64,000 nt of DNA from Mycobacterium sp. HUMS_12744610 (lineage in GTDB: Bacteria > Actinomycetota > Actinomycetes > Mycobacteriales > Mycobacteriaceae): NCBI RefSeq assembly GCF_041206865.1, contig NZ_JBGEDP010000001.1:5642001-5706000 (forward strand). Direction: 5' to 3'. Of this stretch, positions 44,796-64,000 are shown one piece after another. The stretch's first letter is position 1. Every line of letters begins with the position of its first letter. A program made the position numbers and the translations under genes. The notes under the pieces were generated by a model. That model did no database searches, was not told where the DNA came from, and worked only from the letters and a program-made list of their open reading frames with translations.

Positions 44796-45053
44796 ATGAC
44801 CACAGACCGGCTCTTTCCCGGAGCACATTCAGCAGTGGCGACAGCCGGCGGCTTCGTCGACGGCGGCGGTTTCCCCTCCTACTCGTGGTCGCGGCGCCAA
44901 GGCAAGCAATCGTGCGTAGTCAGCTATCACGCCAGCGGCGGGCGGGTCCCGGCGGGCGAGTACCGGATCCGCTGGCATGGAGGGGACGTCGGCGTCGAAT
45001 GGCCCCTGGCGACGAGCCGATTGGCGGCGGTAAAGAAGGCGGCATCATGCTGA
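44796..45053 (+). pseudogene. RmlC-like (dTDP-sugar 3,5-epimerase) C-terminal fragment
   Basis: An open frame of 85 residues (ATG 44796, or GTG 44793). Its last third, YHASGGRVPAGEYRIRWHGG followed by DVGVEWPL, resembles the C-terminus of dTDP-4-dehydrorhamnose 3,5-epimerases, which read like GIRWDDPDIGIEWPL. The first 45 residues do not match that family. It overlaps the next gene by 7 bases. It is probably the tail of a former sugar-nucleotide enzyme of this locus; a functional small protein is less likely. Confidence 0.4.
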
Positions 45054-45988
45054 TCGCCCCCACCGGATCCCGGCGCCGCTTTGAGATATCGTCGCATCGC
45101 CAACCGCGGGAAAGCATCGACATGATCCCCGACACGCGATCCGCTGCAGTTGTGCGAATGGCCCTCAGCGGCAGCATCGTTGAGCGTCGCGAATTCGACG
45201 AGGTGTTGTCGGTCATCGCGTCCCGGCTGCAATCGGCATCGGGTGTCGGCTTGGCGGTGGGGTCGGTCAACCTCGACCACTTGGGCCATTTCCACAACGT
45301 CAGCGCGGCGCCCGTCGGCGCGCTGGAATGGCTGTTTCTGGCCGACGGCATGCCGATCGCCTGGCGAGGCCGGCTGCTCACCGGCAAACGGTGGCCTCGA
45401 ATCACCGGCACAGACCTGCTCCCCAGCGTGCTGCTGTTGGCCGAGAGGACCGGTCAGCGGGTCGGCTTCTTCGGCGGCAGCGTCGAGACCCACCGCCTGC
45501 TCTCCGGTGTTCTGCGTGAACGTTTTCCGGCACTTGCTATCTCAGGAATGTGGGCGCCGGACGCACGCAGCATCGCGTCGTCCTCCGCCGAGTGGGTTGC
45601 GGCGATCCGCAATGCGCGCACCGACATTCTGATCGTCAGCCTCGGCAAGCCGCGGCAGGAGCAGTGGATCGACCAGCACGGCTGCGCGTCGGGCGCGCGG
45701 GTCTTCCTGCCGTGCGGCGCCGCGATCGGCCACTTGGCGGGCAACGTCAAGCGGGCTCCCGGCTGGATGCAGGACTGCGGACTCGAATGGCTCTTCCGGT
45801 TGATCCACGAGCCCCGCCGGCTGGCGCGCCGCTATCTGCTGAACGGTCCCATCGCTTTACTGCGCGTGACACGGGCACAGCTCATCCGCTACCCGGGCGC
45901 GCATCGCGCGGTCACGCCGGTCGGCGCCTGCGCCGACCCGTCCGGCACCGGCCAAGTTTGGGTGCAGTCCGAAACGACGAGTGTGTAG
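45047..45988 (+). CDS. WecG/TagA/CpsF family glycosyltransferase
   Basis: A 313-residue GT26-type enzyme that adds the second sugar (often an N-acetylmannosamine-type residue) to a lipid-linked intermediate. Typical motifs are present: VGSVNLDHLGHF, a GTDLLPSVL helix, GFFGGSVETHRLL, and VSLGKPRQEQWIDQHG with the family's G-x-P-x-QE core, then LPCGAAIGHLAGNVKRAP. The start ATG 45047 has AAGAAGG upstream; ATG 45122 is an alternative. It precedes the initiating phosphoglycosyltransferase by 16 bases. Confidence 0.9.
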   Translation: MLIAPTGSRRRFEISSHRQPRESIDMIPDTRSAAVVRMALSGSIVERREFDEVLSVIASRLQSASGVGLAVGSVNLDHLGHFHNVSAAPVGALEWLFLADGMPIAWRGRLLTGKRWPRITGTDLLPSVLLLAERTGQRVGFFGGSVETHRLLSGVLRERFPALAISGMWAPDARSIASSSAEWVAAIRNARTDILIVSLGKPRQEQWIDQHGCASGARVFLPCGAAIGHLAGNVKRAPGWMQDCGLEWLFRLIHEPRRLARRYLLNGPIALLRVTRAQLIRYPGAHRAVTPVGACADPSGTGQVWVQSETTSV

Positions 45989-46004
45989 GCACAGGTTGAC
46001 GGCG

Positions 46005-47510
46005 ATGACCTCAGTAATCCAGCGGCCGACGAACGGTTCACCGGTCACCGCTTGTCCGACACCGCCGCAGGGTCGAAATACCCGGCAGCGCTGGCAGATC
46101 CGGTATTCGCACCGGATACGTGCCACCGATTCGCTGATCGTCTGCGGGTCGGTGATGCTCGCCCAATACCTGCGGTTCGGCACCTACCCGGAACTTTCGG
46201 GTTACCCGGGCCCGCTGATGACGCTGTTCTCATTGGTTTTCATCGGTCTCTGGCTGTCGTGTCTGACGATATTCAGGACAAGGTCGACGCACGTCATCGG
46301 AGCTGGGATCGACGAGTATCGACGCATCTGCAGCGCGTCGTTCTGGACGTTCGGAATCATCGCGATGGTGACGCTCCTCGCCAGGATCGAGCTGGCCCGG
46401 GGCTATCTGGCCGTTGCCCTTCCCGTCGGCACCATCGGACTATTGACCAGTCGCAGCATGTGGCGCAGATACATCTGCGCCAGGCGTGGGCACGGCGAGT
46501 ACCAGACGGCGGTATTGGCGATCGGACACCGGCGCGAGGTTTCACGCATGGTGCACGAAATGCAGCGCAATCCAGTCGACGGTTACGTCGTCGTCGGGGT
46601 GTGCATACCGGGATACGGTCCCCCCCGCGGCGAATCCCTGACGGCCGGATACCGCGAAGTACCCATCCTCGGCGACGAATCCCACGCGCTGGACGCGATC
46701 ACCTGCTGCGGTGCGGACGCCGTGGTGGTGACCCAGACGGAGAAGTTAGGTTTCCACGCGATCAGAAACCTGATGTGGCAGTTGGAAACGACGGATGTGG
46801 ACCTCACGGTGTCGCCGGGGGTCGTCGACGTCGCCGGGGCACGGTTGACCCTGCGGCCCATCGCCGGATTCCCGCTTCTGCATGTCGAGAAGCCGCGATA
46901 CGAAGGGACCCAGCGATTTCAAAAGCGCGCGTTCGACTTCTTCTTCGCGCTGGCAGCGCTCTGTGTATCGTCGCCGCTTCTGGTCGCGTGTGCGATCGCC
47001 ATCAAGCTGACGAGCAGAGGACCTGTCTTCTACCGTTCCGAACGCATTGGTCTCAACGGTCAGCCCTTCACGATGCTGAAGCTGCGCACGATGACGACAG
47101 GCGCCGATACCCAAGTCGACCGTCTGCTGCACCTCAATGAGGGAGCCGGCGGGATCTTGTTCAAGATGCGTGACGACCCGCGCATCACACCCGTCGGCAG
47201 AGTGCTGCGCCGCTTCAGCCTCGACGAACTTCCCCAGTTCATCAACGTGCTGAAACAGGAGATGAGTGTGGTCGGGCCACGGCCGCCATTGCGGCGCGAA
47301 GTCGAGAACTACGACCGTCATGTCAATCGGCGGCTGCTGGTGAAGCCGGGCGTCACCGGAATCTGGCAGGTAAGCGGCCGTTCAGAACTTTCCTGGGACG
47401 AGTCGGTCCGGCTGGATCTGTCCTATATCGACAACTGGTCGATGGCGGGCGACCTCATGATCATCACCAAAACGGTGAAAGCGGTATTGGCAGGCCACGG
47501 GGCATACTAG
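46005..47510 (+). CDS. Polyprenyl glycosylphosphotransferase (WbaP/CpsE-type initiating enzyme)
   Basis: A 501-residue membrane enzyme that transfers sugar-1-phosphate from a nucleotide sugar to undecaprenyl phosphate, the first committed step of lipid-linked polysaccharide synthesis. Order: about four N-terminal transmembrane segments (to residue 150), a Rossmann-like CoA-binding-type domain (AVLAIGHRREVSRMVHEMQR), a fifth hydrophobic segment (FFFALAALCVSSPLLVACAI), then the catalytic domain with KLRTMTTGAD, DDPRITPVGRVLRRFSLDEL and VVGPRPP. The full-length polytopic form suggests a WcaJ/WbaP-like enzyme. It starts at ATG 46005. Confidence 0.94.
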   Translation: MTSVIQRPTNGSPVTACPTPPQGRNTRQRWQIRYSHRIRATDSLIVCGSVMLAQYLRFGTYPELSGYPGPLMTLFSLVFIGLWLSCLTIFRTRSTHVIGAGIDEYRRICSASFWTFGIIAMVTLLARIELARGYLAVALPVGTIGLLTSRSMWRRYICARRGHGEYQTAVLAIGHRREVSRMVHEMQRNPVDGYVVVGVCIPGYGPPRGESLTAGYREVPILGDESHALDAITCCGADAVVVTQTEKLGFHAIRNLMWQLETTDVDLTVSPGVVDVAGARLTLRPIAGFPLLHVEKPRYEGTQRFQKRAFDFFFALAALCVSSPLLVACAIAIKLTSRGPVFYRSERIGLNGQPFTMLKLRTMTTGADTQVDRLLHLNEGAGGILFKMRDDPRITPVGRVLRRFSLDELPQFINVLKQEMSVVGPRPPLRREVENYDRHVNRRLLVKPGVTGIWQVSGRSELSWDESVRLDLSYIDNWSMAGDLMIITKTVKAVLAGHGAY

Positions 47511-47522
47511 GTGGAGTCAAAC

Positions 47523-48074
47523 ATGCCGACCCATAACCGGAACACTCCAGCGCAGCAACCGATTCACCGCCCGGTTTGCCGGTCGCCGTTTCTCGCGCCG
47601 CCACCGTGTGCCCAACCCCCGCGCAGGCACCGCGGCCGAGTCGGCGCAATCGTCGGCGCCGCCTTTCTGGTCGCCGGGATCGCGACGATTGCCGTGTTCT
47701 CGCGCCTGCAGAGCAGCGACTTCAGTTCCCAGGACCGGCACTATCTGGCGGTGATCCGCAATCCCTGCGAACACAGCGAGGTCTTGGACACGACTCGTTG
47801 CAGCAGTTGGGGCCAGCAGCGTTGGCACTGGCCGGATGACAAAACACTGGTCGAGGATGCAAACGACGTCTGCGCGGCGGAGGCCGATGCCCAGTGGGAG
47901 GTGAAGATCCGGACCGGCGGCAGCTTGATCGCGGCACGCCATCCCGCTTTCTTCGATTTGCAAGTTGGGGTGGAGGAGGTCGCCGCGCGCAATGTCTATT
48001 GCCCGAACGTGATTGCGCCCGCCGGCGAGAGCCCCGACCTCGCTGCGGCGATCGGGCTCAAGGGGACGCCGTGA
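47523..48074 (+). CDS. Small single-pass membrane protein, hypothetical
   Basis: About 183 residues. A Pro/Arg-rich cytoplasmic N-terminus, one transmembrane segment (GAIVGAAFLVAGIATIAVFS) and an extracytoplasmic domain with several Cys (NPCEH, TTRCSSWG, DVCAAE, NVYCPN), which likely form disulphides. The DRHYLAVI start and the VCAA...YCPN spacing loosely resemble the mycobacterial DUF732 fold, but this is weak. GGTGGAG lies 6 bases before ATG 47523; GTG 47511 directly follows the previous stop and is the alternative. Position suggests an accessory role in the polysaccharide pathway. Confidence 0.65.
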   Translation: MPTHNRNTPAQQPIHRPVCRSPFLAPPPCAQPPRRHRGRVGAIVGAAFLVAGIATIAVFSRLQSSDFSSQDRHYLAVIRNPCEHSEVLDTTRCSSWGQQRWHWPDDKTLVEDANDVCAAEADAQWEVKIRTGGSLIAARHPAFFDLQVGVEEVAARNVYCPNVIAPAGESPDLAAAIGLKGTP

Positions 48075-48339: not shown

Positions 48340-49830
48340 ATGGAGAACACGAGGTGGCCCCCGGTCATGACTGAGCCGACCGCACCCGGAACCGACGCGC
48401 CGGCGATACCCGTCGCGCGGCTGGCCCATGCGTTCTCGGTCCAGCTGGTCTGCCGGGTACTCGGGATGCTGGCCTCGGCAGTGTCGGTGGCGATGACCGC
48501 GCGGTTCCTGGGTCCCGGACGCTACGGCCAGCTGACCGTGGCGGTCGCGTTCGTCGGCATGTGGATCAGCCTGGTCGACCTCGGTATCGGTCGCGTGATT
48601 GTGCGCCGCGTCGCCGCCGGGGGCGCCGACCTCGAACGACTCGTGCGGGTCTACAACGGATTGTCCCTGGTGTACTGCGTGCCGTTGGCGGCATTGGCAG
48701 CGGGCTCCGGGTTGCTTCTCTATCACGATCACGACGTGCGCGTGATGCTTGTGGTGTTGTCGGCACAGCTGCTCATGTTGACGATGACGACACGGCTGGA
48801 GCCGGTTTTTCTGGTCACCGTGCGGTTTTCCGCGGTGGCCGTCTCCGACCTCGTCAGCCGACTGGCCACGCTGGCCGCGGTGACTTTTCTGGTGTTCGAA
48901 CGCGAGGACGTCATCTGGTTCGCGGTCGTACAGCTGATTCCGACAGCGTTGCAAGTTCTGATCCAGAGCCATGCGGCCGGACGGCACGTGTCGTTGCGAC
49001 CGGTCTTCGCGCCGCGGGAGGCTGCTGATCTGTTGCGGGACAGCTTTTTTCTGATGGGAGTGACGGTAGTCACCGTCCTGTACTGGCGCGTCGACGGGGT
49101 GATCTTGTCTTTGGTGAACACGCATACGGAGGTCGGCGTCTACGGGCTGGCCTTCTCGATCGCGATCAACACCCTGATCGTGGCGGTGTTCTTCCTCAAA
49201 TCCACACTTTCGACTGCCACGGAGCTGTTTTCGCGTGATGTCGTGGCATTTGCCGGGTTCATCCGCCGCAGTGTCGAGTTGATGTATTTTGCGGCGGTCC
49301 CGATCGCCGTAGTCGGCGCGTTGGTCGCCGAACCTCTGACCGCATTGTTCGGCAGTCAGGCGTTCGTGGAGCGCGGCGCGCCGACGCTGACGTTGCTGTT
49401 GACCGCAGTGGCGCTGCGCTTCGTCACCACCACCCTCGGCGAGGGCCTGTTCGCCAGCCACCACCAGCGGTTCTGGTTCGGTTTGTCCGCCGCCACCTTG
49501 GCGATCAACGTCGTGCTCAACCTGGCTCTCGACGGCAGATTGGGCGCCGTGGGGGCGGGTGTCGCATTGGTGTGCACGGAAGCGTTCAACATGACCGTCG
49601 CCAGCTGGTGGCTGCGCCGCCAGTGCGGTTACCGTACGCCGGTGCTGTTCTTACTGCGGGTGCTGATACCGACGGGAGCGAGTGTCGTTGTGACGGAGCT
49701 CCTTTCGGGTCAGCACGTGGTACTGGTTCTGGCCGCCGCGGCCATCGTCTACCTCGCCACCAGTGCGGCCGTCGGCCCGCTCACCTGGTCGACGATGTCC
49801 TCCCTGCGCCGGATGCAGGCGACGCCATGA
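48340..49830 (+). CDS. Wzx-like polysaccharide flippase (MOP superfamily)
   Basis: A 496-residue protein with about 12-14 hydrophobic segments. The N-terminus has RLAHAFSVQLVCRVLGMLAS and TARFLGPGRYGQLTVAVAFV, the usual start of the polysaccharide transporter family. It should flip undecaprenyl-linked repeat units to the outer face of the membrane. The start is ATG 48340; ATG 48367 after GAGGTGG is also possible. Its stop overlaps the start of the next glycosyltransferase (ATGA). Confidence 0.9.
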   Translation: MENTRWPPVMTEPTAPGTDAPAIPVARLAHAFSVQLVCRVLGMLASAVSVAMTARFLGPGRYGQLTVAVAFVGMWISLVDLGIGRVIVRRVAAGGADLERLVRVYNGLSLVYCVPLAALAAGSGLLLYHDHDVRVMLVVLSAQLLMLTMTTRLEPVFLVTVRFSAVAVSDLVSRLATLAAVTFLVFEREDVIWFAVVQLIPTALQVLIQSHAAGRHVSLRPVFAPREAADLLRDSFFLMGVTVVTVLYWRVDGVILSLVNTHTEVGVYGLAFSIAINTLIVAVFFLKSTLSTATELFSRDVVAFAGFIRRSVELMYFAAVPIAVVGALVAEPLTALFGSQAFVERGAPTLTLLLTAVALRFVTTTLGEGLFASHHQRFWFGLSAATLAINVVLNLALDGRLGAVGAGVALVCTEAFNMTVASWWLRRQCGYRTPVLFLLRVLIPTGASVVVTELLSGQHVVLVLAAAAIVYLATSAAVGPLTWSTMSSLRRMQATP

Positions 49831-49874
49831 CCCGTCGGGAGCGGGCCTACATGACCCGTCGGGAGCGGGCACAG
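49827..49874. repeat. 24-base tandem duplication over the start of the fusion glycosyltransferase
   Basis: Units 49827-49850 and 49851-49874 share their first 20 bases, ATGACCCGTCGGGAGCGGGC, and differ at the end. Each begins with an ATG in the same frame. Confidence 0.9.
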
Positions 49875-51878
49875 ATGAAGCGCCAGATGGACCGCGCCTA
49901 TCTGCGCCAACCGGCCGGCGCCGGCGTCGCGCCGCATTCCGAGCGCCCGCTCGCCGTGCTGATCGTGTCCCACGCGCCCCACGAATTGCTCGAGATGTGC
50001 CTGAGCAGCGTCGCCGAGCAGGTACCCGAACTACCGGTCTACGTCCACTGCAGCGGCGCCGACGCAGATCCCCGTCGCGAGCAACTCGCCACCCTGTTCC
50101 CCACGGTCCACTGGGTGCCGCAACAGGAAAACCTTGGCTCCTCCGCAGCGTTCAACGCGTTGGTGGCACAGACGCCGGGCGGCACAGACCTGTTGTTGCT
50201 CAATCCCCACTACCGCCTACAGAGCCCGTTGGACCGCACCCGTGAGTTGCTGCGCCGGCCCGGCGTGGCCGCCGTTTCGCCGATGGTTCGTGACGACGCC
50301 GCACCCGGTCGAGAGCCGTGGGACTGTGCGTCACGTCGCCGGACACTGATTCGCTCGCTGGTCGCGGCCGCCGGCTACGCCGAACCGCTCCGCGGCACCC
50401 CCTTGTCACACCTTCATGCCCGGCAGCCTCCCGAATCGGAAAGCATAGCAGGCCATCTGAGCGGCAACTGCCTGGCGATCAGTCGGGCGGCGTGGGACGC
50501 GATCGGCGGTTTCGACGAGGAATTCCTCTGCCACGGTGAGGAAGCCGATTGGCAGGCCCGTGCCCGCGGGGCCGGCTGGCACATTCTGCTGGCCGACGAA
50601 CTCGGCGCAGTCCGCGCCCAGCCGGCGCCCGGCGCGGCCGGGCGCGGAACCGATTCCACGGTCGGTCGCCCAGCGGCTGGTGATCGCCGCGACCGGGATG
50701 TGGAACGCACCAACATCGCCCTGCTACTCGAACACCAGGCCGGCGTTCACGCCGCGGACCTGTTTCTGGTCGGCACGACGCTGCTGGAACGAGTGCAGCG
50801 CCCGAAAACAGCTGTGCGGTGCCGTGATCGCCGCCGCACAGATCTGCCGGCGATCGTGATCACCACCAACCGCCTCGTCTACGGGGGCGCCGAGCGGCAA
50901 AAAGCCCTGCTGGCCACGGAGTTGGACCGCCGCGGCTACCCGGTCACCATCGTGTGCATGCAACGCTTCGGCCCTTTGATCAAGGAAATTCCCCAGGGCG
51001 TGCGCGTGGTGCGCCAGCCCTGGTGGGCGCCGCTCGTCGACCTGCCCACGGGTCCGGCGGTGCTCATCAGTGGCGACACCAACACCGAGACGGGCTTCGC
51101 CACGTTGTGGCGCGCGGCATCCCGCGATCGGCGCTGGTTGGTCGCTCCGCATGTCCCTCCCGAGGAGGACCGGCCGATCTACTCCAGGCCGCTCACCGGG
51201 GCGATGTGCCGCGCGGACGGTTTCGTTCTACTGGCACAACGTCATTGGGACATGCTTACGGCTACTCATCGGCTCAGCGGACGGTGCTTCACCGCACCCA
51301 ACGGCGTCGCCTGGACCGGCTCGCCGCCCCCCCGCGTCCGGGCGGCCGGCGAGCCGCCACACCTGGTGATGCTCTCGCGGATCGTCGAGCACAAAAACCC
51401 GCATCTGTTGATCGACGCGCTGGGCGGCCTCACCGATGCGCGGTGGAGGCTTTCGATCTTCGGTGACGGTCCCGATCGGGAGCGCTTGCAGGCCCTCACC
51501 CCCGCCGGGCTGCGAGATCGGGTGCGGTGGTGCGGATGGTCAACCGGCCCGGGACCCGCACTGGCCGACGCCGATCTGCTCTGCGTCCCGAGCCGATCCG
51601 AGGCGTTCCCGCTGGTGATTCTCGAGGCCATGGCTCGGGCCGTTCCGGTTGCCGCGTCGGCGGTCTGCGCCGTTCCGGAGATGCTGGATTTCGGAGCAGC
51701 CGGCTTTGTCGTGGAGCCCGTGTCGGTGTCGGGATGGCGGGAACACCTGGCCCGGATCCTGGCAGACCCCGCCATTCTGCCGTCCGTTGGCCTCCGCGGC
51801 TTGGAACGCATGCGCAAGCACTACACGGTGGACGCGATGACCGATGCCTATCTCGACGCCGTCAACGCCGTACTGTGA
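49827..51878 (+). CDS. Two-domain glycosyltransferase (GT2 then GT4)
   Basis: A 683-residue fusion. Residues about 45-270 form a GT2-like domain (LAVLIVSHAPHELLEMCLSS, LLLLNPHYRLQSPL, GNCLAISRAAWDAIGGFDEE with the E/D-rich acceptor site). Residues about 345-680 form a GT4 domain (VITTNRLVYGGAERQKALLA, LVMLSRIVEHKNPHLLIDAL, FGDGPDRERLQAL, PSRSEAFPLVILEAMARAVP). It could add two consecutive sugars to the repeat unit. The start overlaps the flippase stop. A 24-base tandem duplication repeats MTRRERA at the N-terminus, giving a second possible start at 49851. Confidence 0.88.
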   Translation: MTRRERAYMTRRERAQMKRQMDRAYLRQPAGAGVAPHSERPLAVLIVSHAPHELLEMCLSSVAEQVPELPVYVHCSGADADPRREQLATLFPTVHWVPQQENLGSSAAFNALVAQTPGGTDLLLLNPHYRLQSPLDRTRELLRRPGVAAVSPMVRDDAAPGREPWDCASRRRTLIRSLVAAAGYAEPLRGTPLSHLHARQPPESESIAGHLSGNCLAISRAAWDAIGGFDEEFLCHGEEADWQARARGAGWHILLADELGAVRAQPAPGAAGRGTDSTVGRPAAGDRRDRDVERTNIALLLEHQAGVHAADLFLVGTTLLERVQRPKTAVRCRDRRRTDLPAIVITTNRLVYGGAERQKALLATELDRRGYPVTIVCMQRFGPLIKEIPQGVRVVRQPWWAPLVDLPTGPAVLISGDTNTETGFATLWRAASRDRRWLVAPHVPPEEDRPIYSRPLTGAMCRADGFVLLAQRHWDMLTATHRLSGRCFTAPNGVAWTGSPPPRVRAAGEPPHLVMLSRIVEHKNPHLLIDALGGLTDARWRLSIFGDGPDRERLQALTPAGLRDRVRWCGWSTGPGPALADADLLCVPSRSEAFPLVILEAMARAVPVAASAVCAVPEMLDFGAAGFVVEPVSVSGWREHLARILADPAILPSVGLRGLERMRKHYTVDAMTDAYLDAVNAVL

Positions 51879-52933
51879 ACGCCTCTCGAGTGCTGTGGCT
51901 TTCGCCGTGGATGCGGTCGCTGGCGCGCGTGCAGGCCGAAGCTCTGCGGCGCCGGGGAACCGACGTACTGTTGGTGACCACCGACCAGCATCCGGAGTCC
52001 GACGCCGCGCGCGACTACGAACTGGTGCTCGACCCGGGTTTGCGAACCGCCGCGTCGTGGCCCGCTATCGTCTCGGCCCGGCGGCGCGTTCGCGAATTTC
52101 GACCCGACGTGGTGATCACCGAACTGGTGCGCGATCCCCGCTGGATCGCGCTGGCCGGCCGGACACCGCGGATTCAGCTGGTGCACGACGCCGGCCCGCA
52201 CGACGCCATAGAACAGCGGCGGGCCTACGAACCGGTGATATTCGACCGATGGGGCGCCCGCTCGGCCGCCACCCTCAGCTACAGCGAGTACGTCGCAACC
52301 GCCGTCGCCACTCGCCGCGACGTAGCCGGCACGCATGTGTATGTGTCGCCGCTCACCAGCGACCTCGACCCCACGCTGGTCCCGCCGCTGGTGGGGCCGC
52401 AAGGACGGCACGGTTTCGCCATGGTCGGCCGGCTCTACCCGTACAAGAACGTCGATGTCGTGCTGGCCGCCTGGCAACGACACGTCGACGGCGGCGGCTG
52501 GCGCGGCGACGACCTCACGCTCATCGGCGACGGACCTGGGTACGAGGGCGCCCTACCCGAACACACGTACCGGCTCTCCGGCTGGTACCGCTACCGCGAC
52601 GTCGTGGCGTTACTGGCCGCCGCTAAAGGGTCGGTCATCCACTACCGGCGTGCCTCACAAAGCGGCGTTCAGGTGCTCTCGATGCAGCTGGGCGTGATGC
52701 CGATCGTCTCCCCCGCCGGCGGCCTGCCCGAATACCAGCCTCCTGGCTGCCCGCCTGTCGGTGTGGACGACGTGGCCGGGCTCGCCGCCACCTTCGATGC
52801 CCTGGCAGACCCGTTCACCGCGGCGACCCAGGGCGCCGCGGCGGCGCGCCACTACGCGCGCCGATTCGCCGTCGACCGCGTCGTGGATCGCTTGCTGGAC
52901 GTCATCGCCGAGGTGCTGGCCGGTGCGGTGTGA
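51875..52933 (+). CDS. GT4-type glycosyltransferase
   Basis: A 352-residue GT-B glycosyltransferase starting at GTG 51875, overlapping the previous stop by 4 bases. The C-terminal donor domain has GFAMVGRLYPYKNVDVVLAA, TLIGDGPGYEGAL and SQSGVQVLSMQLGVMPIVSP, where the usual EGFGL/E-x7-E motif is altered to a Ser/Gln-rich version, so it is divergent. The N-terminal acceptor domain begins RVLWLSPWMRSLARVQAEAL. It is the last gene of the forward run 45047-52933. Confidence 0.82.
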   Translation: MNASRVLWLSPWMRSLARVQAEALRRRGTDVLLVTTDQHPESDAARDYELVLDPGLRTAASWPAIVSARRRVREFRPDVVITELVRDPRWIALAGRTPRIQLVHDAGPHDAIEQRRAYEPVIFDRWGARSAATLSYSEYVATAVATRRDVAGTHVYVSPLTSDLDPTLVPPLVGPQGRHGFAMVGRLYPYKNVDVVLAAWQRHVDGGGWRGDDLTLIGDGPGYEGALPEHTYRLSGWYRYRDVVALLAAAKGSVIHYRRASQSGVQVLSMQLGVMPIVSPAGGLPEYQPPGCPPVGVDDVAGLAATFDALADPFTAATQGAAAARHYARRFAVDRVVDRLLDVIAEVLAGAV

Positions 52934-52954
52934 CGGCAAAATCGGCATACCCGT

Positions 52955-53908
52955 TCACCCCTTCTGGGCGACCAGCGCGACATTGTCCGAGAAAAGACCG
53001 AGCTTGCACAGCAATGTGCCACACCAGCGGCGCAACGCAGACGCGGGCAACAGCCCCAAAATCTTTTCGACTGACGACTCGATCCGCAGGAATAAGAATC
53101 CCAACTTGTCAGAGTCAGCGAAATTTCCGGCGCCCAGGATCGTCGCGAGCACACGAAATCTCCGGGGCACGAAACCACAGTAGACGGAGACGAAACCGGC
53201 CCGCCGCACCGCCTCGGCCAGTTCGCGGTTCGTATATTCTTTAAGGTGCATCCCTTGCGGTTCGGCGATTTTGAAAACACGAGAAACGTCGTGTGGTCCG
53301 GTAAATCTGTTCGGCGTGTTGAATACATATCGCCCACCCTTTTTCAGGATGGAGTGGACGCCCCGCAAATGCCAATCCAGATCGTCGGGATGAAGATGTT
53401 CGATCACTTGATCTGAGACCACGGCATCGTAAGTCCCGGCTGGCTCGAACGTGCCCAGGTGCACACCGTCCGACCTCCCCCAGGAAAGGTTCGGGGGCGC
53501 GTCGGCCACCAGCGCTTCTCCGCGTTTGCCGGTGATCTCGCTCCCCTTGCAGTGGTGACCGTTGCGGGCTAGGTACACAATCAGTTCCCCTTGCCCGGAT
53601 CCGATTTCATAGACCGACTTCGGCGGTGGACCGACTAATTGCAACCATCTCGCGAATCTTTCAGTGGGCGGTGCGGTGTCGGCATCGCCGGAGAACTTGT
53701 TGAGCCAGTCCAACTCGTCGTACAGCCGCGTGTAACAACGATCGAAGACGCCCCATCTTTCGCCGGGGGCGGATTGAAGCAATTCTGCCGTCAGTTGTCT
53801 CTCAAGCTGCCAATGATGCAAAATCATCTGCCGGGTGATATCGACCTCGGCCGGGATGTCGTAGATCTTCTTGTAGCGGGCGATCAACTTTTCTTCCCTG
53901 GGTTCCAT
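52955..53908 (-). CDS. SAM-dependent methyltransferase
   Basis: A 317-residue class I methyltransferase. SAM motif I is VYEIGSGQGELIVYLARNGH near residue 98; the later motifs AVVSDQVIEHLHPDDLDWHL and LKKGGRYVFNTPNRFTGPHD are typical of O- or C-methylation of small or sugar substrates. A helical N-terminal region (residues 1-90) and a C-terminal extension flank the fold. ATG 53908 was chosen; the upstream frame is Arg-rich shadow sequence. It is convergent with the GT4 gene, with 21 bases between stops. It probably methylates a sugar of the repeat unit. Confidence 0.85.
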   Translation of the reverse strand: MEPREEKLIARYKKIYDIPAEVDITRQMILHHWQLERQLTAELLQSAPGERWGVFDRCYTRLYDELDWLNKFSGDADTAPPTERFARWLQLVGPPPKSVYEIGSGQGELIVYLARNGHHCKGSEITGKRGEALVADAPPNLSWGRSDGVHLGTFEPAGTYDAVVSDQVIEHLHPDDLDWHLRGVHSILKKGGRYVFNTPNRFTGPHDVSRVFKIAEPQGMHLKEYTNRELAEAVRRAGFVSVYCGFVPRRFRVLATILGAGNFADSDKLGFLFLRIESSVEKILGLLPASALRRWCGTLLCKLGLFSDNVALVAQKG

Positions 53909-53988
53909 CAAGCTTCTATCCCTAGCTTCGCGATGAGCGGCCAACGGCGCGGGACGCGGTACTGCGTGAACACCCCGACGTCGATATT

Positions 53989-55986: not shown

Positions 55987-56434
55987 CACCCGATCAGTAT
56001 GCATTGCTCATTGCACTTCAACCCAATTCATTGATGATTCCCTCTGCCCCGGGGTGCGAAAGTCGATCCGGCCGGGGTTCCCGCGATCGCGCCTCACCGC
56101 CGAAATGCCGACGTGAATTGGGCGAATTCAACGCACGAGGAAGGCGCCAGCCGGGTGAACGCAGATATCCGCCATGACCGTGGATCGGCGATCTTGTCGG
56201 CGTGGACCGATCCGGTCGTGGCGACCATGCCGTCGGCCGGATCGGCCCTCGCCCTGCGGGCCTTGAAGGTCCCGGAGGCGGCCGTGGCATGTGTTTGCTA
56301 GGGTCGCGACTGACGCCGGCCTCGCGGCCGGGGATTCCCCAGCGGGATGCAGCAGGTCGCCAGGAAGGACGCCGTCGGGTGCGCGAAGCACGGCCGCCGA
56401 GAGAGCGTCGTTCGCCGCGTGGGCCGGCTCGCGG
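55987..56434. other. Intergenic region between divergent BcsB-like and GT4 genes
   Basis: About 450 bases if the GT4 gene starts at 56435, or about 300 if it starts at ATG 56291. It should hold promoters for both. No clear operator, repeat or small gene was recognised. Confidence 0.5.
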
Positions 56435-57559
56435 GTGAAGGCACCGGCAGCGACACGGCAGCCGATCCGGGTGCTCACGATCGGCAACGCACCGGCCGGG
56501 CCCGACAGTCGCGGCGGCATGGCGACCGTGATGCGATTGATCATCGAGGACACCGACCCGCGGTTCCATATCCGCCACGTGACCACCTATGTCGACGCCT
56601 CCGCCGCGACGCGGCTGCGGACGGGCATCTCGGGCATGCTGAAGGCATCGGGGCTGCTGTTGTTCGGGTCCGTCGACGTCGTACACGTCCACTACTCGTG
56701 GCGCGGCAGCATCGTGCGCAAGTCCGTCCCGTTGTTCGTCGCGCGGCTGCGGGGCGTCCCGTCGATCGTCCACGGCCACACCTCGCATTTCTTCCCGTGG
56801 CTCGACGGCCTGCCGCCGCCGCTGCGACGCGCCGTGCGGGCGGCGCTGCGCGCCGACTATTCGGTGGTGCTCGCCAGATCCCACATCGAGAAGTCCTGCA
56901 CGCGGCTGGGATTCGACGAATCCCACACCAGGCTGCTCTACAACCCGGTGGTCATGCCTGCCGCCACGCCGTCGCCGCGTTCGGGTCAGCCGGTGCGAGT
57001 GGTGTCGCTGGGCAGACTGGGCACCAACAAGGGAACCTACGACCTTGTCCGCGCGGTCGGCATGCTGCGCGACGACATCCGGGCCAACGTGCGGATCACG
57101 TTGGCCGGCGACGGGGATGTGGACCAGGTGCGCGCATTGGTCGAGGCCAGCGGGCTGGAGGACATTCTCGCCGTCGTCGGCTGGGTCGACTCCGCCGAGC
57201 GGGACCGACTGCTGGCCGAGTCGGCGATCTTTGTCCTGCCCAGCTACAGCGAGGGACTGCCGATGGCGGTGCTGGAGGCCATGGCCAACGGGGTGGCGCC
57301 GGTGACCACCGCGGTGGGCGCGATACCCGAGGTGGTCACCGACGGGGTGAACGGCGTGCTGGTCAGTCCCGGCGATCCCGTCCAACTCGCGGCCGCGCTG
57401 CAGTCGCTCGTCGCCGATGCCGAACTGCGCAACCGCCTGGCCGCCGCCGCGCACGCGCGCGCCGGCGAGTTCGACGTCGCCCACTGGCGGGCGGCGCTGC
57501 ACGACCTGTGGCTCACCGCCGCACGCCAGGGGGCCGGGGGGCCCGGCGCGCGGCGGTGA
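56435..57559 (+). CDS. GT4-family glycosyltransferase
   Basis: A 374-residue GT-B enzyme. The acceptor domain has IGNAPAGPDSRGGMATVMRL, with the glycine-rich loop, and DVVHVHYSWRGSIVRK. The donor domain has VSLGRLGTNKGTYDLVRAVG, AGDGDVDQVRALVE and the E-x7-E motif PSYSEGLPMAVLEAMANGVA. GTG 56435 is chosen because the conserved part starts about 10 residues later; ATG 56291 would add 48 low-quality residues. Its 3' end overlaps the convergent deacetylase by 47 bases. Confidence 0.88.
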   Translation: MKAPAATRQPIRVLTIGNAPAGPDSRGGMATVMRLIIEDTDPRFHIRHVTTYVDASAATRLRTGISGMLKASGLLLFGSVDVVHVHYSWRGSIVRKSVPLFVARLRGVPSIVHGHTSHFFPWLDGLPPPLRRAVRAALRADYSVVLARSHIEKSCTRLGFDESHTRLLYNPVVMPAATPSPRSGQPVRVVSLGRLGTNKGTYDLVRAVGMLRDDIRANVRITLAGDGDVDQVRALVEASGLEDILAVVGWVDSAERDRLLAESAIFVLPSYSEGLPMAVLEAMANGVAPVTTAVGAIPEVVTDGVNGVLVSPGDPVQLAAALQSLVADAELRNRLAAAAHARAGEFDVAHWRAALHDLWLTAARQGAGGPGARR

Positions 57560-58610
57560 TCCCGCGGCCGCCGCCGTAGCGGCGCGGCAGCCCCCCGGAG
57601 ACCATGAGCCGGAAGTAGGCGAACGACGAATCGCTGCCCACTGCCAACCGCGGCAGCGCCAGCGGGTCACAGTGCGCATCGGCGAATCCGGGGGCGGTCG
57701 ACAACGCCCAACGCACGCCGCGGCCACGCAGGACATCCTTGGCGCGCTCGTCGAAATCATGCGGGCGGCCGTTGGGATACGCGAAAATCGTGGGCTTCGA
57801 CCCGGTCTCATGTTCGAGCACCGAGCATGAATCGATGATCTCGCGCTGGACGTCTTCGTCGCTGCAGCGCGCCAGAATCGGATGGGTCACGGTATGGGGA
57901 TGCAGTGTCACCAGGCCGTCGTTGATGATCTCGTGCGCTTCGTCCCAGGAGAGCATCTCGAACGGGCCCGGGTCACCGTCGCGGTAGCCCAGCACCGCGA
58001 GAATCTGCTGCAGCACCGCGATACGTCGCGCGTCGGCCAGGTCTTTGAGACGATCAACCGCGGCCGCGTAGACCCCGCCGCGGGCAGCGGTACCGCCGAG
58101 GGAACGTGTGCCCAGCCCCAGCGCGCTCAGGTCGACCTCGGTTGCGGTGGTGCGGGCGATGGCCAGCCAGAGCCGGTCGGCCCACAGGGTCTGGTCGCTG
58201 CCCATCGGACCCGTCGCCAGAAACACCGCCGCGGGAAGCGCCAAATCCCGTAACACCGGAACCGCGTTTCTCGCCAGATTGCGGGTGCCGTCGTCGAACG
58301 TGATGGCCAGGGCGCGCGGCGGCAACGTCCCCGCCGCTAGCCGATCCAGGGCCTCGGCGAGCTGCAGGACGGTGAAATGCGCGCGGAGATAATGCAGTTG
58401 ACGGCGAAAAAGCGCCGAGCCGAGCACATGCCAGCAGGGCGGCGACAGTGGTTCTTGTTCGACACCGTGGAACATCACGATCAGGAGCCGGTCGCGGTGG
58501 CGCCGCCGCGCGAATGCCGGAACCCCGAGGGCACACAGCAGTCCGGCCGCGACGTTTTTCGTCCACGTGCGGATCGCGGCCGGCGCAAACTCCCTGAGCC
58601 CTGCCATCAT
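57513..58610 (-). CDS. Polysaccharide deacetylase (NodB/CE4 family)
   Basis: A 365-residue CE4 protein. NodB motif 1 is LAITFDDGTRNLARNAVPVL with the Asp pair, motif 2 is LHPHTVTHPILA with the zinc histidines, and motif 3 includes YPNGRPHDFDERA. An N-terminal hydrophobic stretch (VAAGLLCALGVPAF) may anchor it. It probably removes N- or O-acetyl groups from the polymer or an intermediate. The start is ATG 58610 (or 58607). Confidence 0.88.
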   Translation of the reverse strand: MMAGLREFAPAAIRTWTKNVAAGLLCALGVPAFARRRHRDRLLIVMFHGVEQEPLSPPCWHVLGSALFRRQLHYLRAHFTVLQLAEALDRLAAGTLPPRALAITFDDGTRNLARNAVPVLRDLALPAAVFLATGPMGSDQTLWADRLWLAIARTTATEVDLSALGLGTRSLGGTAARGGVYAAAVDRLKDLADARRIAVLQQILAVLGYRDGDPGPFEMLSWDEAHEIINDGLVTLHPHTVTHPILARCSDEDVQREIIDSCSVLEHETGSKPTIFAYPNGRPHDFDERAKDVLRGRGVRWALSTAPGFADAHCDPLALPRLAVGSDSSFAYFRLMVSGGLPRRYGGGRGITAARRAPRPPGVRR

Positions 58611-58971
58611 CTGTGAGACCCTAACGCGACGCCGAGCCTGACTTGAAGACCGATGCCCGTACCGCCGGCGGCCCGGCGCGATGATGCAGGCCGACAACAG
58701 ATCCCGGCTGCAGGGACGCCGGTCCGATCCGGCCGATGCGTCCCAGGCCGCGACGTGCCGCGGCGGGCCGCGAACCGGTGCAGCCATCATCACCACATGC
58801 GCGACAAACCGTGGATACGGTCTAAGGTGGCGACGTGGCCAGCCCGAGCGCTGAACGGCTCCCCGAAACCCGTCGATCGTTCGACGGGACCGCGACGCGT
58901 GGCCGCCACTGCTACCACGGATTTCAGGCCGAGGTTGCGGCCGGCCGGTGCGAGCACCTGACGGTGATCGG
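58611..58971. other. Intergenic region between divergent deacetylase and FkbM genes
   Basis: About 360 bases. Open frames here are Arg/Pro-rich and show no protein-like conservation pattern. Probably promoter DNA for both neighbours; no specific motif recognised. Confidence 0.5.
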
Positions 58972-59916
58972 GTGAGCGGGCCACTGCGGGACATCCTGTG
59001 CCCGGCGCGTCTGACACACATCGTGGATGTCGGGGCGAGCCGGAGCTGCGGCGACTGGCCCTACACGCCGATGCTCGAAGCGGGTTTGTGTCATGTGACA
59101 GGCTTCGAGCCGGCGCGCGAGGCGTTGCTCGCCCTGCAAAAAGCGTGTGGGCCCAACGAGTCCTACCTTCCTTACGCTCTGGGTGACGGCACCACGCAGA
59201 CCCTGAAGGTTTGTCCGGCTCCGGGCGGGATGACCAGCTTGCTCGAACCCGATCTGACAGCGCAAGGACTTTTCACCCTCTTCGATCCGTTCGGCGTGGT
59301 GGTCGATCGCGTCCCGGTCGACACGCACCGGCTTGACGACATCGATGAAATCGAGCATCTCGATCTGCTGAAGATCGACATCCAGGGAAGCGAGCTTTCC
59401 GTCTTCGAAAACGGCCGGAACAAGCTGGCCGGGGCGGTGGCAATTCAGACCGAGGTGTCGTTCATCACGTTGTATCAAAACCAGCCCTCATTCGGCGAGG
59501 TCGATGTGGAGTTGCGGCGTCAGGGGTTCCTACCGCACTGCATTGCCGGGGACGTGAAGAAATGGATGATCGGCGACTTCGCTGTCGGCGGAAATCCCGA
59601 GCGGGCGCTGAATCAGATCCTGGAAGCCGATATCGTCTATGTGCGCGATTTCTTCCGTCCAGACGGGATCTCCGACGAGCAATTGAAGCATTTGGCGCTG
59701 ATAGGGCACCACTGCTACGGGTCCTACGACTTGGCATTTCGCTGTCTGCAATTGCTGGAGGAACGAAACGCGGTGCCGGCACGCGGCGCGCAACGTTATC
59801 TGAAAAGCTGCAAGAGTTCCTTACGGGGCAAAAGAGCGCGCTGGTGGGCGGAGTACAACGTGGCACGCCTGAAACAGCGCGGACAAAAATGGGTGAGGTC
59901 GGCGGCGCCGAGTTAG
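58972..59916 (+). CDS. FkbM-family methyltransferase
   Basis: A 314-residue SAM-dependent methyltransferase of the FkbM type. IVDVGASRSCGDWPYTPMLE forms motif I, GFEPAREALLALQKACG contains the acidic residue, and LDLLKIDIQGSELSVFENGR is the FkbM signature. These enzymes O-methylate sugars in many exopolysaccharide and O-antigen loci. GTG 58972 was chosen; GTG 58948 would add eight residues. The Lys/Arg-rich C-terminus (LKSCKSSLRGKRARWWAEYN) is beyond the core fold. Confidence 0.88.
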   Translation: MSGPLRDILCPARLTHIVDVGASRSCGDWPYTPMLEAGLCHVTGFEPAREALLALQKACGPNESYLPYALGDGTTQTLKVCPAPGGMTSLLEPDLTAQGLFTLFDPFGVVVDRVPVDTHRLDDIDEIEHLDLLKIDIQGSELSVFENGRNKLAGAVAIQTEVSFITLYQNQPSFGEVDVELRRQGFLPHCIAGDVKKWMIGDFAVGGNPERALNQILEADIVYVRDFFRPDGISDEQLKHLALIGHHCYGSYDLAFRCLQLLEERNAVPARGAQRYLKSCKSSLRGKRARWWAEYNVARLKQRGQKWVRSAAPS

Positions 59917-60016
59917 CAAACCGGCGGGAGTGGCGCCCCGGCAGTTGATGCCGCGCAGCTGTCTACGGTCGCCACGATCGGGCCGCCGGGTGCACCGGGA
60001 ACGCTACAGTGACCTG

Positions 60017-60973
60017 GTGCTCAGCCTCGAGACGATGGTCGCCGAGGGCCTCTTCATCTGCCCACGCTGCGCCGGCCCGGTGCGCCCCGCCGATGGATCA
60101 TGGCGTTGCTCGAACGCGTCCTGCCGATACGCCGAGGAGCCCTTTCCCGTGGTTTCGGGCGTACCGGCACTAGTCGACTTCGACCGCAGCGTGCTCGACG
60201 TCGACAAGTTGCGGGCTTCGGGGGGCGCATCGCCGATCCGCCGGACCGGGTTCCACCGCGTGCTGAATCGACTGCTCCATCCGGCCAACACCACCGCGTC
60301 CGCCAGCGTCGCCCGCATGCTGCGCCTGCTCGGGGCCGATGATGACGCGGCGCGGCGAAGACCCCGAATTCTCGTGATCGGGGGCGGTACCCGGGGCGAC
60401 GGCCTGGCGGCACTGTATGCCGAGCCGGCGGTCGATCTCATCGCCTTCGACATCTACTTCAGCCCCGCGGTGCAATTCGTCGGAGACGGTCACGCGATCC
60501 CGCTGACCGACGGCTCCGTCGATGGCGTGGTCATCCAGGCCGTGCTTCAGCACATGCTGGAGCCCACGGTTGTGGTGAACGAGATCCACCGCGTTCTGCG
60601 CAGTGGCGGAATCGTCTACGCCGACTCGCCTTTTCTCCAGCAGGTGTGCGAAGGGCCGTACGACTTCACCCGTTTCACCGATAGCGGCCACCGGTACTTG
60701 TTCCGCAGCTTCGAGTGCGTCGACTCCGGCTGTGTGGCCGGAGCCGGCACGGCGTTGCGGTGGTCGCTCGACTATTTCGTGCGGGCGCTGACCCGATCGG
60801 TCCGGCTCGGCAGAGTCACGTCGCTGTGCTTTTTCTGGCTCAGCTTCGTCGACCGAATGCTCGACCCGGGACATTCCCTGGACGCGGCCAGCAGTGTTTT
60901 CTTCCTCGGCCGCAAGAGCGCCGCCCCGATCACGCCGACCCAGATCATCGGCTACTACCAGGGCCGAACGTGA
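60017..60973 (+). CDS. Methyltransferase with N-terminal zinc ribbon
   Basis: About 318 residues. The N-terminus has a Trm112-like zinc ribbon, FICPRCAGPV ... WRCSNASCRY, followed by PFPVVSGVPALVDF. The class I methyltransferase domain has ILVIGGGTRGDGLAALYAEP and DGSVDGVVIQAVLQHMLEP. Motif I is less canonical than usual (GGGTRG). GTG 60017 or ATG 60035 are possible starts. It follows the FkbM gene by about 100 bases on the same strand and probably acts in the same decoration step. Confidence 0.82.
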   Translation: MLSLETMVAEGLFICPRCAGPVRPADGSWRCSNASCRYAEEPFPVVSGVPALVDFDRSVLDVDKLRASGGASPIRRTGFHRVLNRLLHPANTTASASVARMLRLLGADDDAARRRPRILVIGGGTRGDGLAALYAEPAVDLIAFDIYFSPAVQFVGDGHAIPLTDGSVDGVVIQAVLQHMLEPTVVVNEIHRVLRSGGIVYADSPFLQQVCEGPYDFTRFTDSGHRYLFRSFECVDSGCVAGAGTALRWSLDYFVRALTRSVRLGRVTSLCFFWLSFVDRMLDPGHSLDAASSVFFLGRKSAAPITPTQIIGYYQGRT

Positions 60974-61018
60974 GGGCCTTCGGGGCCGCACCGGCGCCGA
61001 CGTCGCACACCGCCGAAG

Positions 61019-62485
61019 TCAGACGCGCGCAGCCGCATACGCCGGCGCCGGGTTGACACCGATCCGGGCCCCGTCCCGGCCCGTGCTTGCCATGCCGGCG
61101 AACGCCGTCGTCGCACCGAGAGCAAGGCCCAGCGCCAAGGCGTCGATCGGCATCTCCGGCAGCGGCCACACGGCCGATATCGCCAGGAGTGCGGCGCTGA
61201 CCGCGGCGCTGATCTTCGCCGGCGCGGACGCACGACGCAGCGCACGGATCAGCGGAGTGAGGGCGAACAGAGCGAACACCACCATGCCCACCGCCCCGGC
61301 TTTGACCCACCACCACAGGTAGAAATTGTGCGAGTAGGTGGGTTGGTACTTCGTGCTGAACTCGTCGTCTCCCGACGGCAGCTGATAAACGTAGCCCAAG
61401 CCGTGGCCGAACACGGGTGCCCGCGCGATCGCGCGGTTGAGGTTCCTGATTTCCTGCAGCCGGTCCAGAGTCGACGTGTCGACGGCGAGCGCGCCCGTCG
61501 AAACCCCGCCGAGCACCCGATGGTTGAACGCGGCGAACTGCTTTGCCAGCCATACTCCGCTCGACGAATCGCGCAGGACGAACAGTGTTGCTGCGACCGT
61601 CACCACTGCCACCAACGCGGTGATCACCGCAAGGGCGACCACCCGGCTCAGGCTCGACCATCTGAAGCTGGCGAGCAAGGCCACGATGGTGGCCACCGCC
61701 AAGGCGATCAACGTGTTTCGGCTGACCGACAGCAGCGTGATGATCAGCGCCGGAGGACCCAGTGCGAGAAACACCGCGGGCCTGATCTGCCCGACGACCG
61801 CGGCGGCGGCCAAACCGGCCAATACGGCGACGGCCGGAGATTGGGTGGCGACGATGATGCGGAGGGCATCGCCGGCGTCGGTCCCCGTCAGGTTTTCCGC
61901 CCGGCCGGCCAGTCGGACGGCATGCAACGAACTCACGACTGCCATGCCCGCGGAGAACCACAGGATCAAGACCATCGTGCGCACCACCCCCTTGACGTAC
62001 CCGCCGTACACGACCAGCAACGCCAAGATGTACCCGCCGACCATTTCGAGCAGGGTCGTCGATTCGAGCATGACGATGTCGGCGGCATGTCCGGTGACCA
62101 CACCGACGACGGTGAAGAACAGCACCGTCAACGTGAGCAGTCCGGGCAACAGGTAGTCGGCGAACCGCAGTTTCACCACCGGAAGCAGGTAGCAGATCGC
62201 CAGCAGCAGCGCCACCTGGTAGGCGTTGATCACGCCCGGGCCGACGACTTTGCCGACGTGTAAGCCCGCCGGCAGCGCCGCGAAAGCCCAGAACAATGCC
62301 ACCCCCACCATCGCCTCCCGTTTAGCCCAGTAGACGACCAGACTGAACATCGCTGCGATCAGCAGCGCTCCGTGGACGCTGTCGCGCACCGAGAACACCC
62401 CGACCAGGAAGCAGCCGAACAGGAAAAGCCCTAGCGCCAATCCAGCCACCGCGAGGCGGTAGCGACCCCCCATGTAGAGGATCAC
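61019..62485 (-). CDS. Wzy-like O-antigen polymerase/ligase family protein
   Basis: A 488-residue protein with about 12 transmembrane segments. The large periplasmic loop lies at about residues 310-390, and the segment TYSHNFYLWWWVKAGAVGMV matches the O-antigen ligase/polymerase signature with its conserved His. RVLGGVSTGALAVDTSTLDR and GHGLGYVYQLP are also in the expected loop. It should polymerise flipped repeat units, or transfer the finished chain. Its start overlaps the Wzz/kinase stop by 4 bases, linking polymerisation to length control. Confidence 0.88.
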   Translation of the reverse strand: MILYMGGRYRLAVAGLALGLFLFGCFLVGVFSVRDSVHGALLIAAMFSLVVYWAKREAMVGVALFWAFAALPAGLHVGKVVGPGVINAYQVALLLAICYLLPVVKLRFADYLLPGLLTLTVLFFTVVGVVTGHAADIVMLESTTLLEMVGGYILALLVVYGGYVKGVVRTMVLILWFSAGMAVVSSLHAVRLAGRAENLTGTDAGDALRIIVATQSPAVAVLAGLAAAAVVGQIRPAVFLALGPPALIITLLSVSRNTLIALAVATIVALLASFRWSSLSRVVALAVITALVAVVTVAATLFVLRDSSSGVWLAKQFAAFNHRVLGGVSTGALAVDTSTLDRLQEIRNLNRAIARAPVFGHGLGYVYQLPSGDDEFSTKYQPTYSHNFYLWWWVKAGAVGMVVFALFALTPLIRALRRASAPAKISAAVSAALLAISAVWPLPEMPIDALALGLALGATTAFAGMASTGRDGARIGVNPAPAYAAARV

Positions 62486-63863
62486 GCCGGTCTCCTGGCC
62501 TTCCCCCGATAGGTCTGGGCCGCGGCCCTGGTATGTGCGGGCATGCGGGTGTTGGTCAGCACGACCCCGACGACCTTCGCGCCGGCCAAACGCAGAGCGC
62601 TCAACGCCTCGGTGAGTTCGTCGATCGTGGTCCGCCCCGCCCGCACGACCAACACCGTGGCCTGCGTGGCTCCGGCCAAAAGTCCGGTATCGGCCGTCGC
62701 CAGCACCGCTGGGCCGTCGACCACCGTCCGGTCAAAGTGTGACGACAGCTCTGCCAGTACCGTGTCGATGACTTCCGGGAGGTAGGCGCTGCAGGGCAAA
62801 GCGTCGCGGCGGATGGATCGCGACGCGAGGATGAACAGCTTCGAAATCGCCGTCGGCTTGGTGGCTTCCGCGGCGATGTCGGGGTTGGCCAGCGCGCTCG
62901 CCAACCCTTCCCCCGATGCGACCTTCAGCAGACTGGCGATCACGGGTCGACGAATATCGCCCTCGACCAGCAATACATCTTCGCCGAGTTCGGCGAAGGC
63001 CATCGACAGATTCAACGCCGTCGTCGTGGTTCCTTCACCGCCGAACGGCGCCGCTATCAGCACCCGACGAACGTCGGGCCCCATTGCCCGGAGCAATCTG
63101 GTGCGCAAGCCGCGGACAGCGTCGTCGAAGGTGACGTCGGTGCCGAACCGCGGCGCGGTGCCGCGCTTTCCGGGCAGCTCCGCCAAAGTCGGCAGGCCCG
63201 TGACTTGTTCCACCTTCGCCCGGTCACGCACGCTGCGATCGCTGGCGTCGCGGGTCAGCGCCACCGCGATACCCAAAAGCACTCCGGCGACAAGCCCGAT
63301 CGCCATGTTGCGCATCGGCACCGGCCTGCTCGGCCGATCGGGTATCTCGGCCTGTTTGACTACCGTCGCCCTGGCGACCGGTCCGGATTCATTCGCCCGC
63401 CGCTCACCCGCGTTCATCGGGACAAGATTCGAATCGAGCGTCGCGACCATCCCGGCAAAAGAATCGGCCATCGCCGCCGCGAACAATGCGGCGCGCTTGG
63501 GACCGGTGTCGGTGACGGTGATGGTGAACAGCATCGATTTCGCCGCGTACTTCACCTCGGTTTCGCTCGCCAGGGTGTCGGGGCTGATCTGGAGCTGGAA
63601 TTGGTTGACCGCGCGTTCTGCCACGGCTCGGCCACCGGCGATCTCGGCATACGACGACAATCGGTCCAGGGCGGCCTGCCCGCCGTAGTAAACGTCAGTG
63701 AGGTCGGTCGCCCCGGAAAAGGAGACGAGAATTGTTGCCGAGGACGGTATGCCTTGTTCTGAAAGACCGTGACGACCGCCGCACCGACCAGACACGCCAG
63801 CAACGCGCTGACGACGAGTTTCCAGCGCACGAGGAGGGTCCGGACAAAGGTGCGGAAATCCAT
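62482..63863 (-). pseudogene. Wzz chain-length determinant/BY-kinase fusion, one-base frameshift
   Basis: When joined, about 460 residues. The N-terminal Wzz part starts MDFRTFVRTLLVRWKLVVSA at ATG 63863 with GGAAGG 7 bases upstream, and includes the first transmembrane segment to VFQNKAY. The frame then shifts near 63750; adding one base links it to SATILVSFSGATDLTDVYYG and the rest. A second transmembrane segment (NMAIGLVAGVLLGIAVALTR) leads to the kinase domain: Walker A APFGGEGTTTTALNLS, Walker A' LLVEGDIRRP, Walker B TVVDGPAVLATAD. The C-terminus has one Tyr rather than a Tyr-rich tail. It would control chain length by phosphorylation cycling in this locus. Confidence 0.82.
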
Positions 63864-64000
63864 CCATTAGCCTTCCTCGATACGGGTCACGCGAATGGCG
63901 TCGGTCCTCTGCACTGAATACCGCGGCGCAAATTCCAGTGGCATTATGCCGCATCGCCGACGGGTGGCATCCCAATCTAGTCCCGCCGCCTGAGCGGGCA

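Follow-up and report, generated by a model that had tools for sequence, protein, structure and literature searches.

A putative Wzx/Wzy-type heteropolysaccharide locus headed by a PPE gene in Mycobacterium sp. HUMS_12744610 and other slow-growing non-tuberculous mycobacteria

The window analyzed here, a 64,000-nucleotide stretch of the Mycobacterium sp. HUMS_12744610 chromosome (contig NZ_JBGEDP010000001.1; C1:5642001-5706000), belongs to a genome of 6.42 Mb in three contigs, which AftD at the left end of the window and 66 PPE matches identify as mycobacterial. Profile scans placed a Wzx/Wzy-type polysaccharide gene set at 45.1 to 64.0 kb of the window. A first-pass annotation had described a complete Wzx/Wzy-type locus in a mycobacterial chromosome, comprising genes for a polyprenyl glycosylphosphotransferase (GPT), a WecG-type transferase, a Wzx flippase, glycosyltransferases of families GT2 and GT4, three methyltransferases, a deacetylase, a Wzy polymerase, and a Wzz/BY-kinase. 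All of these gene classes were present with profile support, and the profile matches, together with a core that recurs in other species, bore out the assignment to this pathway. Completeness held only in part: although no named gene class was missing, the locus extends past the annotated genes to the left and to the right, and in this assembly the co-polymerase gene is broken in frame. On the left, a PPE gene extends the locus leftward of 45047, directly 5' of the genes first noted, and on the right the locus overruns the window to about L003:10823 (70.8 kb in window-equivalent coordinates). The PPE gene at the locus head, a BcsB-like protein without a synthase, and a lipoprotein with a glycoside hydrolase (GH) fold right of the window go beyond what had been described.

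The locus begins with an open reading frame (ORF) for a PPE protein of the PPE-SVP type (43624 to 44787, + strand; PF00823, E = 8.9e-62; PF12484). Next on that strand come ORFs predicted to encode a WecG/TagA/CpsF-type glycosyltransferase (45122 to 45988; PF03808, E = 7.9e-48 on the start at 45122 and 1.9e-47 in the form first scanned), the initiating GPT (45981 to 47510; PF02397, E = 2.7e-67; TIGR03025 above cutoff), a 187-amino-acid protein with one predicted membrane helix (47511 to 48074), and the Wzx flippase, with 12 hydrophobic segments (48340 to 49830; PF01943, E = 4.3e-21, above cutoff). The 187-amino-acid protein matched DUF732 only below the cutoff of that family in the profile scan, and its M. 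helveticum counterpart is 89% identical. Three further glycosyltransferases are encoded on the + strand, namely, a GT2-GT4 fusion (49827 to 51878; PF13641 and PF00534), a GT4 protein (51911 to 52933, scanned as 51527 to 52933; PF13439 and PF13692), and a second GT4 protein, GT4b (56291 to 57559; PF00534, E = 1e-34), whose frame was absent from the first gene call and whose true start may lie farther 3', near 56435 to 56471.

ORFs annotated as potentially modifying the repeat unit or chain were those for a methyltransferase (52955 to 53908, − strand, scanned as 52955 to 54079; PF13489, E = 5.1e-15), a NodB-like polysaccharide deacetylase (57513 to 58610, − strand, scanned as 57513 to 59021; PF01522, E = 7e-18), an FkbM methyltransferase (58948 to 59916, + strand; PF05050, E = 1.4e-23), and a type 11 methyltransferase (59930 to 60973, + strand; PF08241, E = 6.2e-11). 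The − strand also carries the BcsB-like gene (53989 to 56004), the Wzy polymerase candidate, with 13 hydrophobic segments (61019 to 62485; PF04932 [Wzy_C], E = 1.2e-15, above cutoff), and the Wzz/BY-kinase co-polymerase (62482 to 63975; PF13807 [GNVR] and PF01656 [CbiA/BY-kinase]; TIGR01007 below cutoff). Internal stops were absent from all fifteen genes as read. The GC content of the locus was 66.1%, versus 69 to 71% in the flanks, a comparison that the first-pass annotation had proposed, and that of the methyltransferase at 52955 to 53908 was 57%.

The distribution of the locus was surveyed in 198 genomes of the genus, in which related species are not independent of each other. GPT relatives (E ≤ 1e-30) were found in 150 of these, with at least 65% identity in 41 genomes, this one included, so the locus is not peculiar to this genome. 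Wzy (E ≤ 1e-10) was found in 47 genomes, covering every one of the 41 genomes with the closely related GPT, and Wzx (E ≤ 1e-60) in 57. Scattering of the genes, looked for because it had been put forward as a refuting case, was not the rule; GPT and Wzy lie 69 kb apart in one genome (G108) and on separate contigs in several of the 41. In named genomes, a scan with Wzx alignment confirmed 83 stretches, 80 of which were kept. The nearest named locus was that of M. helveticum (Wzx 98% identical), and other carriers included the kansasii complex, avium-complex species such as M. colombiense, M. scrofulaceum, M. bohemicum, M. gordonae, M. asiaticum, M. genavense, M. triplex, and Mycolicibacter; Wzx relatives at 40 to 49% identity were found in one Gordonia and a small number of fast-growing species. 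Across the 80 named loci, Wzx was present in 80, the GT2-GT4 fusion in 75, GPT in 74 (6 loci showed none), GT4 in 73, and GT4b in 51, counts that are lower bounds since the stretches end 10 kb from Wzx.

The middle of the locus varies by species, with decoration genes swapped and some inverted. This exchange, along with the 57% GC methyltransferase, agrees with the stepwise assembly that had been suggested from gene orientation. The grouping of these genes is not due to chance, because dozens of species share this core; spread across the genus and a variable middle point, on comparison of sequences, to an old locus that is shared among slow-growing non-tuberculous mycobacteria and has exchanged its decoration genes.

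The product is likely to be a polymer, as judged from the gene content. Alternatively, the locus may make a short lipid-linked oligosaccharide that is put on a lipid or protein by a ligase, with the Wzy candidate being that ligase. Pfam names PF04932 for the O-antigen ligase, the family includes both ligases and polymerases, and a profile match alone does not separate the two; mycobacteria, moreover, make many glycolipids. However, the Wzz/BY-kinase gene adjoins Wzy both in the window and in nearly all relatives covering both genes, and a GH-fold lipoprotein and a deacetylase suit a polymer better, which makes a ligase quite unlikely.

A same-strand PPE gene was found 5' of GPT in 68 of the 74 GPT-bearing named loci; the six loci without one were L112, where there was no room, and L071, L109, L116, L118, and L119. 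No opposite-strand gene lay between PPE and GPT in any of the 68, and the median gap from PPE to the next ORF was 72 bp. By best seed label, the space between the two genes held thirteen different gene strings, with PPE constant: it was empty in 4 loci, contained a single dTDP-sugar isomerase gene in 24, and contained genes for an NTP transferase, PIG-L, an epimerase, an isomerase, and WecG in 10. In the PPE tree, 68 rows (67 named loci plus the window) fell on one side of a branch with support of 100/95. On the other side were 30 rows, made up of 28 further PPEs from this genome plus two that belong to other GPT clusters; 66 matches had been found in this genome, 30 of which had loci, and two duplicates of tree rows and the fragment from L111 were left out. 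A PE gene lay 5' of PPE in at least 14 of the 68 loci, a lower bound since a single gordonae PE served as the query, and three of these were confirmed by Pfam; at the locus in the window, the search found no PE gene. A scan of 43.3 to 46.0 kb returned no promoter-like and no terminator-like sites, a result that neither shows nor excludes a single transcript.

A second GPT cluster was observed in the same genome (L005:14204-18500 and L006:719-16557; C1, 1.410 to 1.431 Mb). Its genes encode PE, PPE, and GPT (all three by Pfam), a ketoacyl synthase, an AMP-binding enzyme, an amine oxidase, a GH71-like protein, a GDP-mannose dehydratase, an epimerase, and two GT4 proteins.

The BcsB-like protein (671 amino acids) has a signal-type and a C-terminal hydrophobic segment, and in a fold search most of the protein matched BcsB. 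Mycobacterial relatives at 45 to 53% identity usually adjoin a CelA-like GT2 gene. Among the best 68 rows (identity of at least 45%), a CelA-like synthase lay within 7 kb of 0 of the 24 GPT-linked copies versus 34 of the 44 others, with G048 scored as unlinked on a short contig. The protein could instead serve a cellulose-type synthase encoded elsewhere in the genome and be present here by accident, and one genome with a GPT-linked copy (G057) does have a CelA-family match on another contig. Yet CelA/BcsA (TIGR03030) had no match in this genome at E = 0.001, and 23 of the 24 genomes with a GPT-linked copy showed no CelA match among the rows used; together with the lack of a synthase near any linked copy, this renders a distant synthase very unlikely. 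In G081 (C36:135469-144859), a CelA-BcsB pair was observed a few kilobases away from another BcsB-like gene, which itself adjoins Wzx; the synthase-less gene may have originated from such an arrangement.

To the right of the window lie, in order, a gene for a 610-amino-acid lipoprotein, another copy of this gene broken into two ORFs, and three methyltransferase genes, followed by MaoC-like, acyl-coenzyme A (CoA) dehydrogenase, and AMP-binding genes. The tandem lipoprotein copies occupy L003:4045-8479 (window-equivalent 64.0 to 68.5 kb), and a third copy lies at C1:1457981-1459606. The lipoprotein, which databases assign to family DUF4832, matched TIM-barrel glycoside hydrolases in the fold search, with PslG among the Foldseek matches (rank 46, identity of about 11%). 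Members of clan GH-A have a TIM barrel with catalytic Glu residues on strands 4 and 7; a Glu pair was invariant in 22 of 22, and its position on the barrel strands and the activity are predicted. Of the lipoprotein gene, only remnants full of stops, as in a reduced genome, are left in two 3.3-Mb single-contig genomes of the genus (G075:C1:335721-336032 and G115:C1:310954-311577).

Two ORFs overlapping GT4b, at 56018 to 57811 (− strand) and 56347 to 57559 (+ strand, the first-called frame), were rejected as genes on the basis of odd composition and the lack of a family. Five proteins had no match in PHROGs, and a sequence search of the PDB returned no match for the lipoprotein, the BcsB-like protein, or the false ORF, the first two of which were later placed by the fold search. 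Elsewhere in the window, adjacent Mutator-type and IS110-type transposase genes lie in a lower-GC stretch (9690 to 12669), and the end of AftD is followed by a same-strand homologue of lipase maturation factor LMF1 (3 to 4476).

The reading preferred here, to which a probability of about 0.8 is assigned, is that the chromosome carries an old Wzx/Wzy-dependent heteropolysaccharide locus that is widespread among slow-growing non-tuberculous mycobacteria and in which the PPE, BcsB-like, and lipoprotein products have the following putative roles. GPT would load the first sugar phosphate onto polyprenyl phosphate, and the GT2-GT4 fusion, the two GT4 proteins, and WecG would lengthen the chain to a repeat unit of, by enzyme count, at most about six sugars, which the methyltransferases would decorate. 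Wzx would then flip the unit, and Wzy, under the Wzz/BY-kinase, would polymerize it. Beyond the inner membrane, the deacetylase and the GH-fold lipoprotein may trim or release the chain, and the BcsB-like protein may bind or guide it; the dedicated PPE protein, presumably exported by type VII secretion, may hold the polymer on the mycomembrane or help it over. The gene content, the conserved core, the linkage of PPE and BcsB, and the folds are observed directly, and from these we infer the polymer, the order of its sugars, and all roles outside the cytoplasm.

Several observations weigh against this reading. WecG, deacetylase, and BcsB-like genes are missing from some relatives, and the PPE of M. 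genavense (L111) was called only as a fragment. Fast-growing and Mycolicibacter relatives (L109, L116, L118, and L119) have Wzx loci without PPE, and PPE is therefore not required for the pathway as such. A divergent TetR-family gene lies 5' of PPE in 54 of the 63 loci with room for it, so the PPE linkage is partly plain synteny. Of 43 GPT sites from other clades, one, L179, had a PPE (1 of 36 in one set and 0 of 7 in another), although the misses are weak because the number of PPE genes in those genomes was not measured. PPE may thus be merely a conserved chromosomal neighbor of a pathway that runs without it. In this genome, however, the TetR orthologue lies at 1.46 Mb, beside the third lipoprotein copy and 4.2 Mb from the locus, and that of M. 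helveticum is likewise about 4.2 Mb away, with PPE still at the locus. Similarly, in genomes of the kansasii complex type, TetR lies about 23 to 26 kb from GPT in three and on another contig in the fourth, with PPE at the locus in all. The thirteen arrangements between PPE and GPT also argue against simple adjacency, as does the fact that both the second GPT cluster in this genome and L179 start with PE-PPE, although the PPEs of these two clusters lie outside the locus-PPE clade. A neighbor with no part in the pathway is accordingly a serious possibility, if a somewhat unlikely one.

A further point of the same kind is that the locus may be failing in this strain, because the co-polymerase frame is broken and one lipoprotein copy is split, two breaks within about 5 kb. 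In the ORF at 62482 to 63975, the N-terminal membrane segment is in a different frame from the remainder in this assembly; the gene is in one frame in M. helveticum and seven further relatives compared. Decay to an inactive locus is nevertheless considered unlikely: the other fourteen genes are open and agree with their M. helveticum counterparts over the length compared (89 to 98%), intact co-polymerase genes occur in relatives, and the two breaks may have arisen through errors in assembling GC-rich DNA.

Capsular glucan and arabinomannan of mycobacteria are made by other routes, and an undescribed surface polymer, as the first-pass annotation proposed, is a plausible product given these genes. 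Among the matches listed in the open-licence literature (titles and abstract openings), neither a Wzx/Wzy locus of mycobacteria nor its PPE was found described. Wza, the outer membrane exporter, is a feature of the diderm Gram-negative members of the pathway; in the profile search, its family (PF02563) was absent from this genome and matched in 1 of the 198 genus genomes, which bears on the Gram-negative form only and not on the pathway itself. The available parts of published accounts state that PPE10, an ESX-5 substrate, is required for capsule integrity, with export of lipid or carbohydrate given by the authors as one option (PMC4900558), and that PPE64 forms a channel in the mycomembrane and has a role in biofilm as well (PMC12802285). 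Because the Wza family is missing and these two PPEs are tied to the capsule and the mycomembrane, a role of the locus PPE in retention or export of the polymer is proposed. It is further conceivable, but doubtful, that in slow-growing mycobacteria PPE and a BcsB-like protein, released from its synthase and acting as a guide in the periplasm, stand in for Wza and carry the polymer made by Wzy across the periplasm and the mycomembrane; if so, one PPE clade would have a defined job, and the pair would be a new kind of polysaccharide exporter.

How polysaccharides pass to the surface of mycobacteria is an open question, as is the function of most PPE proteins. Because the locus is deletable and joins one PPE clade and a BcsB lacking its synthase to a Wzx/Wzy pathway, both questions can be addressed by gene removal in environmental species. 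From its variable middle, surface polymers that differ between species would be expected in the avium, scrofulaceum, gordonae, and kansasii groups. For mycobacterial biofilm polysaccharides, the machinery of synthesis is reported as unknown in the portions at hand of a review (PMC6364259) and of a paper on M. marinum epsH (PMC12167362). That paper, in the same portion, links a mycobacterial glycosyltransferase to biofilm matrix composition; epsH is a single gene, no Wzx/Wzy locus appears in that portion, and the likeness is one of description, not sequence. For PPE10 with ESX-5 and for the PPE64 channel, the likeness to the locus PPE (a link to capsule or biofilm and to mycomembrane passage) also rests on description and not sequence, and the available parts of those accounts (PMC4900558 and PMC12802285) contain no polysaccharide operon. 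The lipoprotein resembles PslG-type GH-fold hydrolases of exopolysaccharide loci in its TIM-barrel match and Glu pair but differs in its low identity, DUF4832 family, and position right of the window, and its hydrolase activity is a prediction. BcsA-BcsB cellulose-type modules share with this locus a protein that matches BcsB over most of its length, whereas the synthase of such modules is lacking near the GPT-linked copies and in this genome. Like other Wzx/Wzy exopolysaccharide and capsule loci, this one clusters GPT, Wzx, Wzy, Wzz/BY-kinase, and glycosyltransferase genes in a conserved frame with swapped decoration genes; unlike them, it has no Wza-family exporter, is headed by PPE, and contains a BcsB-like protein without a synthase. 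The type of pathway is ordinary, and its company, PPE and the BcsB-like protein, is unexpected.

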